NCBI GenBank assembly: GCA_023511835.1
Contig: JAIMAT010000009.1
Location: 1-48,029 of the forward strand
Length of the DNA: 48,029 nucleotides
Reading direction: 5' to 3'
Origin: Bacillota bacterium
GTDB taxonomy: Bacteria; Bacillota; Sulfobacillia; JAIMAT01
This document shows positions 12,825 to 25,201 of the stretch, in pieces. Position 1 is the stretch's first letter, and every line of letters starts with the position of its first letter. A program made the translations under genes and the position numbers. A model generated the notes under the pieces. It had not been told where the DNA came from. It was given only the letters and a program-made list of their open reading frames with translations, and made no database searches.

Positions 12825-12853
12825 CGGACGGCCCTGGTCGAGCTGTGTATAAT
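12825..12853 (+). promoter_or_regulatory. candidate sigma-A promoter for the glmU transcript
   Basis: TATAAT (12848-12853) is a perfect -10 element. CGGACG at 12825-12830, 17 bases upstream, keeps only the central GAC of the -35 consensus. It begins 40 bases after the spoVG stop and would give a 5' leader of roughly 400 bases before glmU. Confidence 0.4.
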
Positions 12854-22759: not shown

Positions 22760-22786
22760 GGAGCGTGCTTGCGCCCGTCTGTCCGA

Positions 22787-22794
22787 CATAGGAT
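22787..22794 (+). promoter_or_regulatory. possible sigma-E -10 element before yabP
   Basis: CATAGGAT matches the sigma-E -10 consensus CATACAAT at 6 of 8 bases and lies 31 bases before the yabP start. The matching -35 region about 14 bases upstream is poor. yabP is sigma-E-dependent in Bacillus, so the element is plausible but not certain. Confidence 0.25.
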
Positions 22795-22825
22795 GCAACG
22801 ATCACGCCCGGACGGGGGTGCGGGC

Positions 22826-23107
22826 ATGGAGAGGACGGAGCAGGGCCGGCACGAACTCCACCTGGTGGACCGGAGCAGCCTGCGCGTCGTCGGGGTCCAG
22901 AACGTGGAGAACTTCGACGAGAACCAGGCGCTCCTCGCCACGCCCCTCGGTCTGCTCTACATCCGCGGGAGCAACCTGCACATCCGCCAGCTCGACCTCG
23001 ACGCCAGCGAGTTCGCCATCGAGGGCGAGATCGCGGCCCTGGAGTACCGCGAGTCGCGGGCCCTGCGGCACCGCGGCCGGGGCCTGCTACAGCGCATGAC
23101 ACGGTGA
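22826..23107 (+). CDS. yabP: sporulation protein YabP
   Basis: YabP is made in the mother cell and is required for spore cortex formation together with YabQ. The 93-residue protein shows the family core HELHLVDRSSLRVVGVQNVENFDENQALLATPLGLLYIRG and the sequence LHIRQLDLDASEFAIEGEI. ATG 22826 has GGGGGTG five bases upstream and fits the family start; an in-frame start at 22769 would add 19 unrelated residues. It is followed by yabQ after six bases. Confidence 0.93.
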   Translation: MERTEQGRHELHLVDRSSLRVVGVQNVENFDENQALLATPLGLLYIRGSNLHIRQLDLDASEFAIEGEIAALEYRESRALRHRGRGLLQRMTR

Positions 23108-23113
23108 GCGGCC

Positions 23114-23644
23114 GTGCCGTCTCCCGCTTCCCCGGCGGCGCTGGGCGGCCAGGTCTACGTCTTCTTTCTCGCGCTGCTCGCGGGTGACGCCGTCGGTCTG
23201 CTCTATGACCTTTTCCGCGCCACGCTGCGCCCGGCCCGGAAGCGCGGCTGGGGCGACCTGCTCGACCTGCTCTTCTGGCTGCCCGCCTCCCTCCTCCTGG
23301 CGACCGCCATGGTCCTGGGCAACTGGCTCGAGTTCCGGTTCTATCCCCTGCTGGGTGTGGGCGCCGGCCTGGTTCTCTACTTCACCCTCGCCAGCCCGGC
23401 CGTCTACGGCTCGCTCCTCGCCCTTCGCCGAGCGACCGGAGCGGGGGCGCGGCGCGTCGTCCTGGGTGGGCGGCGTCGCCTCTCCCCGGTCGCCCGGCGG
23501 GTGGGGGCCGGGCTTCGCCGTCTCACCACCGCCCTGCGGCGGCCTCTCTCCCGGGCCAAGCGGCGCCGGCTGGGGCGCCTGCGGCGCCTGGTACGTCTCG
23601 GCCGCCTGCGTCGCCTGCGTCGCCGGCCACCGCGCAGGCGCTGA
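23114..23644 (+). CDS. yabQ: spore cortex biosynthesis membrane protein YabQ
   Basis: YabQ is an integral membrane protein of the mother-cell-derived outer forespore membrane needed for cortex synthesis. Three hydrophobic segments are visible at about 12-34, 48-70 and 75-100. The motif GLLYDLFRA after the first is typical. The last 65 residues are exceptionally Arg-rich, ending in an RRLRRRPPRRR-like tail; this is longer and more basic than usual and may lie on nucleic acid or anionic lipid. The GTG start follows the yabP stop by six bases. Confidence 0.9.
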   Translation: MPSPASPAALGGQVYVFFLALLAGDAVGLLYDLFRATLRPARKRGWGDLLDLLFWLPASLLLATAMVLGNWLEFRFYPLLGVGAGLVLYFTLASPAVYGSLLALRRATGAGARRVVLGGRRRLSPVARRVGAGLRRLTTALRRPLSRAKRRRLGRLRRLVRLGRLRRLRRRPPRRR

Positions 23645-23797
23645 CCGATCCCCCGAACGGCCCGCCCCGCCGGTTCTCCTCCACGCAGCCCGTCGTCTCC
23701 CTGCCCGGTGCCGTCGGGCACCCGGGCCGGCGGCTCGGCCCGCGGGACGGGAAGGCGCGGCCCGGCAGGGATCGGGCCGCCGCTCGCGAATGGCACC

Positions 23798-23853
23798 ATG
23801 TACACAGCTTGTACTAACTTTGTACACAGACTTCTCCACAGCTGTGTACAAGC
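23798..23853 (+). repeat. 11-bp-phased TGTAC repeat array upstream of the HTH gene
   Basis: Five consecutive 11-base units start at 23799, 23810, 23821, 23832 and 23843. Units one to three begin TGTAC; units one and three share TGTACACAG and lie 22 bases apart. TTGTACACAG (23820-23829) and CTGTGTACAA (23842-23851) form a perfect 10-bp inverted repeat with a 12-base gap. The stretch is far more A/T-rich than its surroundings. It lies 19 bases upstream of the small HTH gene. Four of its nonamers (TTGTACACA twice, ATGTACACA, TTCTCCACA) also resemble the high-GC DnaA box TTGTCCACA within one or two bases. Upstream (23645-23797) only a bulged GC hairpin near 23703-23727 is seen after yabQ. Confidence 0.75.
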
Positions 23854-23871
23854 GGCCCGGGAGGCTGTGGG

Positions 23872-24111
23872 GTGCGGATCGAGATCCGCGGCGTGGAGCG
23901 TCTCAGCTTTCGGGAGCGCCAGGTGGTGACGCTGAAGGAGATGGGCCGTTCGACGGAGGAGATCGCGGCCACCCTCTCCCTGGCGCCCGCCACCGTCTCG
24001 ACGCTGCTCAACCGCGCCCGCAGCAAGGGCTACCAGGTCGTGATCGTGCTCGAGGGCGACCCGCTTGGCCTCTCCGCTGCGGAGGGAGCCGGGAGCGAGG
24101 CGGAGCCGTAG
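23872..24111 (+). CDS. small LuxR/sigma-region-4-like helix-turn-helix protein
   Basis: The 79-residue protein is almost entirely one DNA-binding domain. LSFRERQVVTLKEMGRST, EEIAATLSLAPATVSTLLNR and ARSKGYQ follow the LuxR/GerE or sigma region 4 pattern of four helices. No receiver or ligand domain is attached. A short tail ending EGAGSEAEP follows. GTG 23872 lies 19 bases after a phased TGTAC repeat array that could be its own operator. It precedes a DivIC-like gene by 16 bases, so the two may be co-transcribed. No specific family role is recognised. It has no evident counterpart at this point in the Bacillus order. Confidence 0.75.
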   Translation: MRIEIRGVERLSFRERQVVTLKEMGRSTEEIAATLSLAPATVSTLLNRARSKGYQVVIVLEGDPLGLSAAEGAGSEAEP

Positions 24112-24127: not shown

Positions 24128-24619
24128 ATGGATGCCGCCTGGGAAGAGGCGCAGGAGCCGGTGCGGGGAGCGGGGGCGGTCGTCCCGGCCGAACGGGGCG
24201 GGCTCCCGCGCCCTCTTCGCGCGCCCCGGGAGCGGGAGCGGCCGCGCATACGCCTGGCGCGGCCGGAGCGGCTCCTGGCGGTGGTCGTGGGGAGCGCCCT
24301 CCTGGCGCAGATCGGGTGGTCGGGCCTCCGGCTCCTTGAGGCCCAGAGGCAGCTGGCCACGGCCCAGGCGATGATCGCCGAGCAGGAGGCGGCCAACCGG
24401 GCGCTGGACCGGCAGGCGGCGGAACGCCAGAGCCTCGCCTACGTGGAGCGGATGGCCAGGAGCGAGTTCGGGCTCGCCCGGCCCGGCGAGACCGTCTACC
24501 GCATGACGGGGAGGCAGGGCGGCGGCGACGTGGGGGCCTCCGGCGCGGGGGGCGGACCGTCGCTCCCGGGGGACGCTTCCTCGCTGGGGTCGGCGCTGGG
24601 GGCCGTCCTGGCCCGCTGA
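24128..24619 (+). CDS. DivIC/FtsB-family septum formation protein
   Basis: The 163-residue protein has a cytoplasmic Pro/Arg-rich N-terminus, one transmembrane segment (about 48-69), and an extracellular coiled coil (RLLEAQRQLATAQAMIAEQEA onward). The FtsB/DivIC end motif YVERMARSEFGLARPGETVYRM follows. A Gly/Ser-rich tail of about 35 residues follows, which is unusual. DivIC works with FtsL and DivIB in the divisome. Its place after yabQ and before the S1 gene matches divIC in Bacillus. ATG 24128 has GGTGAGGTGAGG upstream. Confidence 0.88.
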   Translation: MDAAWEEAQEPVRGAGAVVPAERGGLPRPLRAPRERERPRIRLARPERLLAVVVGSALLAQIGWSGLRLLEAQRQLATAQAMIAEQEAANRALDRQAAERQSLAYVERMARSEFGLARPGETVYRMTGRQGGGDVGASGAGGGPSLPGDASSLGSALGAVLAR

Positions 24620-24701: not shown

Positions 24702-25097
24702 ATGGCGTTGGAAGTCGGCAGCGTGGTGGAGGGCGTCGTAACGGGCGTGACCAATTTCGGCGCCTTTGTCCAATTGCCGACCGGGGAGACGGGCCTCGTC
24801 CACATCTCGGAAGTCTCGGACGAATACGTCGAGAACATCGAGGACTTCGTGAAGAAAGAAGACCACGTGCGGGTCAAGGTGCTCTCCATCGACCCCGTGG
24901 CCAAGCGGATCGGTCTCTCCATCCGGCAGGCGCAGGAGGGCTGGAAGCCGAAGCCCAAGGGCGGACGGCGGGGAGGACCCCGCCGGGGACCCCAGAGCTT
25001 CGAGGAGAAACTGGCCCGGTTCATGAAGGAGAGCGAGGAACGGCAGCGGGACGCCCGGAAGCGCGCCGAGGGGAAGCGTGGCGGGCGCGGTCACTGA
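24702..25097 (+). CDS. S1 RNA-binding domain protein (YabR-like)
   Basis: Residues 1-75 are one S1 domain: VGSVVEGVVTGVTNFGAFVQL, ETGLVHISEVSDEYVENIEDFVK, VRVKVLSIDPVAKRIGLSI. A basic, Gly/Arg-rich tail follows (131 residues in total). The family binds RNA or ribosomes; its exact role is unknown. It follows divIC as yabR does in Bacillus but has its own good promoter. ATG 24702 is preceded by GGAGGAGGAG. The gene ends 17 bases before tRNA-Leu. Confidence 0.93.
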   Translation: MALEVGSVVEGVVTGVTNFGAFVQLPTGETGLVHISEVSDEYVENIEDFVKKEDHVRVKVLSIDPVAKRIGLSIRQAQEGWKPKPKGGRRGGPRRGPQSFEEKLARFMKESEERQRDARKRAEGKRGGRGH

Positions 25098-25114: not shown

Positions 25115-25201
25115 GCCGGGATGCTGGAAGAGGCAGACAGGGGCGACTTAAAATCGCTTGCCCGAGAGGGCGTGGGGGTTCGAGGCCCCCTCCCGGCACC
25201 A
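25115..25201 (+). tRNA. tRNA-Leu (TAA anticodon), CCA encoded
   Basis: The acceptor stem GCCGGGA (25115-25121) pairs with TCCCGGC (25191-25197), with discriminator A25198 and encoded CCA. The anticodon loop CTTAAAA places TAA at 25149-25151. The long variable arm GCCC-GAGA-GGGC is typical of a class II tRNA, and the T arm is GGGGG-TTCGAGG-CCCCC. It is read from the same direction as the S1 gene and is followed by a classical terminator. Confidence 0.97.

Follow-up and report, generated by a model that had tools for sequence, protein, structure and literature searches.

In Bacillus subtilis, chromosome replication is coupled to sporulation through SirA and through sda, a gene activated by DnaA (PMC4447404, PMC8203912). 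Both sda and sirA are genes of the Bacilli and are absent from clostridia (PMC3533761). For the coupling of replication to sporulation outside the Bacilli, the array described here offers a testable candidate.

The DnaA-controlled promoters of B. subtilis (sda and dnaA; PMC4447404, PMC8203912) carry a DnaA-box cluster at a small regulatory gene, in a sporulation-related setting. DnaA boxes are 9-mers, given as TTWTNCACA or TTATNCACA (PMC7561715, PMC4447404). Promoters of SigH have an AGGA −35 element and a GAAT −10 element, separated by 17–18 nt (PMC12456013). The locus studied here resembles sda and dnaA in its box cluster, its small regulatory gene and its setting. On the other hand, it differs from them in its target, a 79-aa protein designated HTH79, in the strict 11-bp register of its TGT words, in its TTGT forward boxes, in the presence of TTGTANTAA units and in its SigH-type promoter. 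The combination of a SigH-type promoter and a DnaA-box array names a specific promoter, a candidate binder and an uncharacterized gene. No description of the array was found in the literature searched, which had most subscription journals outside its coverage.

The window, i.e. the whole stretch of 48,029 nucleotides that was analyzed, contained five units in exact 11-bp register at 23798–23852, as read directly from the sequence. Unit 1 (ATGTACACAGC, 23798–23808, forward) included a forward DnaA-box-like sequence, ATGTACACA, with one mismatch to TTRTNCACA. Unit 2 (TTGTACTAACT, 23809–23819, forward) was of the TTGTANTAA type and not a DnaA box. Unit 3 (TTGTACACAGA, 23820–23830, forward) contained an exact forward TTRTNCACA box at 23820–23828, and Unit 4 (CTTCTCCACAG, 23831–23841, forward) a forward box-like sequence with one mismatch (TTCTCCACA, 23832–23840). 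Unit 5 (CTGTGTACAAG, 23842–23852) was oriented on the reverse strand, with an exact reverse TTRTNCACA box at 23843–23851 (TTGTACACA). Two exact boxes and two with one mismatch were found within 54 bp, and TGTAC occupied positions 2–6 of Units 1–3.

The original prediction had described five 11-base units, an inverted repeat and an A/T-rich patch, all of which were confirmed by direct reading. The array stretch was among the most AT-rich 55-bp windows (fraction 4e-5), the whole window being 74% GC. The window had a single occurrence of three TGTA words in 11-bp phase, and 60 Markov-1 random copies had none. The inverted repeat, formed by TTGTACACAG (23820–23829) and CTGTGTACAA (23842–23851), was perfect. 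It was rejected as the key feature, because the window held 34 comparable repeats (perfect, 10 bp, with gaps of 0–40).

Both exact boxes were of the TTGTACACA type, a subtype not seen at the oriC of the same genome. This sequence had exactly two copies in the 2.36-Mb genome, both inside the array. No box in the window array matched the stricter TTATNCACA consensus exactly; exact matches were present in many relatives. The boxes and the promoter match of the window copy were weaker than those in many relatives.

The candidate SigH-type promoter was located on the forward strand at 23767–23791, with AGGG(AT) as the −35 element (23767–23772), GAAT as the −10 element (23788–23791) and a 17-nt spacer. 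It was one base off, with AGGG in place of AGGA, and thus a weaker match. Most relatives had a SigH-type promoter ahead of the array: AGGAWW-N15/16-GAA was present in 72 (54 + 18) HTH79 upstream regions, compared with about one in shuffled sequences. In Sulfobacillus, a SigA-like TATAAT replaced the SigH-type promoter. The array mostly started within about 30 bp past the −10 element. With the presumed start and leader lying under the array, repression is more likely than activation.

The protein-coding genes described here were all on the forward strand. The array was preceded by yabP (22769–23107; PF07873, 2.8e-16) and its immediate upstream neighbor yabQ (23114–23644; PF09578, 2.5e-14), and followed by the HTH79 gene (23872–24111; Sigma70_r4_2, 4.7e-9; GerE, 2.7e-7), a divIC-like gene (24128–24619; PF04977 (DivIC), 9.2e-12) and an S1-domain (YabR-like) gene (24702–25097; PF00575, 1.1e-20). 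This yabP-yabQ-divIC-S1 cluster is known from B. subtilis. Here, HTH79 was inserted ahead of divIC, and at most HTH79 loci DivIC and/or S1 came after HTH79. The tiny LuxR/sigma-4-like gene that had been predicted 19 bases past the last unit was indeed found, with a GTG start at 23872. A GGAGG sequence (23860–23864, forward strand), 7 bases before the GTG, is likely its ribosome-binding site. A tRNA-Leu (TAA) gene was present directly past the S1-domain gene (25115–25201).

HTH79 was predicted to fold as strand-HHH-strand (model mean pLDDT 87), and an alignment of 41 sequences had 22 invariant columns. In Foldseek, the core resembled GerE, NarL-type proteins and sigma region 4 over about 43–46 aligned residues. 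None of these structure matches was below E 0.001, and they covered the HTH core alone. GerE of B. subtilis (1fse), a small LuxR-type sporulation regulator, is likewise a small free-standing LuxR/sigma-4-type HTH protein. The likeness to it extended over about 43 residues (rmsd 0.6–2.0, E about 0.07–0.13) and to the Pfam GerE model. Unlike GerE, HTH79 has flanking β-strands and a conserved KGYQVVIVxxGDPL tail. No NCBIfam model matched HTH79 at cut-off. A phage origin of the protein was also considered and rejected, as a phage match was not found.

HTH79 was present in 54 of 61 relatives in the class and, in a sample of 250 genomes from the phylum, in 104 (about 40%). Among GTDB genomes, taken one per species, 349 stretches contained it, including stretches from Desulforamulus, Carboxydocella, Syntrophomonas, Sulfobacillus and Formimonas. 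In one single-contig genome of 3,566,135 bp (L107, G023:C1:3441000-3442300), HTH79 was split by a frameshift and the array was intact. The copy in G054, of the same genus, was intact, and the frameshift may be a sequencing error or a real loss.

The 11-bp phase was conserved in relatives. In a chain model of 50 HTH79 loci of the class, which favored 11 bp and permitted 10, 12, 22 and 23 bp, 164 of 177 unit spacings were exactly 11 bp. An alignment-free check agreed: of the 98 TGTA words in the 60 bp ahead of the first forward box at the relatives' loci, 91 were at −11, −22 or −33 from that box. The evidence is comparative throughout, and the sequences counted are related, so that these counts do not represent independent events. 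At seven loci (L020, L090, L098, L106, L195, L217 and L231), the TGTA units were in phase, with no DnaA box matching exactly. Despite these box-free HTH79 arrays, ordinary box pairs were present at oriC in the genomes of L090 (G016) and L098 (G004).

The array is real, not a product of chance, and widely conserved, being shared by many deep-branching spore-formers; the strongest evidence for this is that both its phase and its sequence are kept in relatives. The original prediction of a phased operator of the HTH gene, which had been staked in part on conservation of the spacing in relatives, was borne out.

That prediction had assigned the operator to both the HTH and the divIC-like genes, and only the former assignment held. 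In six relatives without HTH79, yabQ was directly followed by divIC and the array was absent. At L162, L186 and L205, the array was kept at HTH79 genes without a recognizable yabQ or divIC neighbor. The array therefore belongs to HTH79, and divIC was rejected as the controlled gene. Control of divIC would probably come by read-through. The restriction of the array to loci with the HTH gene fits autoregulation, but is not proof of it.

The operator call stood, but the original prediction had not recognized the units as DnaA boxes with the type and pair spacing of oriC. In 113 non-redundant HTH79 upstream regions, 200 exact TTRTNCACA boxes were found, compared with 0.8 in shuffled sequences, and 97 of the 113 contained at least one. 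The forward units were mostly TTGTCCACA or TTGTACACA. The gene-proximal units, in the slot of Unit 5 of the window, were mostly TGTGGATAA, the reverse of the consensus DnaA box. Units fell into the forward-box and reverse-box classes two to three times as often as independent positions would predict.

A pair of boxes 12 bp apart, TTRTNCACA-N3-TGTGNAYAA, was found at 34 places in the 61 genomes, and the reversed-pattern control at none. Classified against the positions of HTH79 and dnaA, 19 of these places were at oriC, 10 at HTH79 and 5 elsewhere. The pair was also present at oriC in G022, a genome without HTH79. A wider arrangement, TTGTNCACA-N13/14-TGTGNAYAA (forward-23-reverse), was found at 24 places in the 61 genomes, 23 at HTH79 and one at oriC. 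In the 250 phylum genomes, 31 of 36 such places were at HTH79.

Across the class, the box type of the HTH79 arrays matched that of the organisms' own oriC. The oriC of the window's own genome contained TTGTCCACA and CTATCCACA, with TTATCCACA after dnaA. At position 5, the reverse boxes of the arrays had mainly C, with a spread of bases like that of oriC. The oriC clusters have the 9-mer consensus and the forward-12-reverse pair in common with the HTH79 arrays of the same genomes, but they prefer TTAT forward boxes. TTGT accounted for 101 of 109 forward boxes at HTH79 versus 5 of 41 at class oriC (p = 1.5e-21, an optimistic value, as the sequences are related). The TTGTANTAA units were nearly absent from oriC (one at class oriC versus 26 at HTH79 arrays). 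The spacing also differed, being an 11-bp TGT register at the arrays and 12 and 24 bp at oriC.

We consider it reasonably probable that the array is a DnaA-box operator of HTH79 on a SigH promoter, with divIC affected by read-through. Several of its units would be DnaA boxes, in both orientations and in one 11-bp helical register. The promoter directly upstream of the operator would be of the SigH type, or SigA-like in Sulfobacillus, and the operator would span the presumed transcription start and the 5′ leader. From the box type and the pair spacing common to oriC and the HTH79 arrays, the parsimonious and most likely reading is that DnaA, the binder of oriC, would also bind here. Binding would be cooperative, and bound DnaA would set the transcription of HTH79 by replication status, a control that read-through would extend to divIC and the S1 gene.

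The TTGT forward boxes, the 11-bp phase and the TTGTANTAA units differ from oriC, and this suggested a second, overlapping reading of the array. It may be a low-affinity DnaA array mode or come from HTH79 at its own promoter. HTH79 is the natural candidate for a second protein, since the array goes with it, and it perhaps reads TGT on one face of the helix. Autoregulation by HTH79 might be a second layer, given the 11-bp TGT constraint, which was not seen at oriC. A more elaborate version, about which we are doubtful, is that DnaA and HTH79 both read the 11-bp register on the SigH promoter. The two would then form a feedback switch by which division or early sporulation is coupled to replication in spore-formers outside the Bacilli, filling the role of Sda and SirA in Bacilli by means of a DNA-binding protein.

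HTH79 autoregulation might also account for the array by itself, with monomers on head-to-tail TTGTNNNNA units along one helix face repressing their own gene, and with an incidental likeness to DnaA boxes. This is consistent with the array being always with HTH79 and absent without it, with the single orientation of TGT at 11 bp in all units of either box class, with the genomes that have TTGTA-type units alone, with the high conservation of the HTH79 residues, and with the TTGT bias of the forward boxes. We judged it rather unlikely, as it leaves the slot classes, exact DnaA boxes in both orientations above the expectation from independent positions, and the pair syntax shared with oriC, even in the HTH79-less G022, to coincidence. 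It was improbable that the array serves as a reservoir for DnaA or as an element of a secondary origin (datA-like, or a DnaA-box cluster) and is beside HTH79 by accident. The boxes of such an element would be oriC-like, as observed, and the cluster was about 60–210 kb from dnaA in single-contig genomes, but the array moved with HTH79 to other loci, was lost with it, and sat between the promoter and the start codon.

Tandem Spo0A 0A boxes are head-to-tail sites near early sporulation promoters, and in this they resemble the HTH79 array. A Spo0A operator of this kind (TGTCGAA) would suit the SigH-type promoter and the tandem direct repeats, and two arrays of the TGTA type, at L195 and L217, did contain TGTCGAA. 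This core was not enriched, with 4 occurrences in the 113 upstream regions versus 1.3 in shuffled sequences (maximum 4), making Spo0A a very improbable reader. Chance or base composition might produce a single 10-bp inverted repeat, as such repeats are common in the window, but almost certainly not the array: it is refuted by the conservation of the phased units in dozens of families.

With the DnaA-box operator as the preferred reading, the SigH-type promoter, the boxes and the place beside division and sporulation genes suggest that HTH79 could be in a position to tie septation or early sporulation to replication. The analogy to sda and SirA would be a functional one, and is speculative. Sda (PF08970) was found in none of the 61 class genomes, and HTH79 itself matched Sigma70_r4_2 and GerE, not Sda. 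Mutual exclusion of HTH79 and Sda was dropped as evidence: five of the 250 genomes had Sda, none of them with HTH79, for which the chance was about 0.07 and confounded by phylogeny.

DnaA-box clusters away from dnaA were also observed in one family, at L242, L243 and L244 (G037:C1:41771, G017:C39:24194 and G052:C260:3319). They adjoined an ORF that by eye resembled a NUDIX hydrolase and, in two of the three genomes, also a sigma-factor-like ORF. They are possibly a further DnaA-controlled promoter or a reservoir. Another cluster, at L256 (G049:C158:9620), had several further box-like sites, and its contig was not the one with dnaA. In the window, a single TTATACACA on the reverse strand at 12844–12852 matched the DnaA-box consensus exactly.
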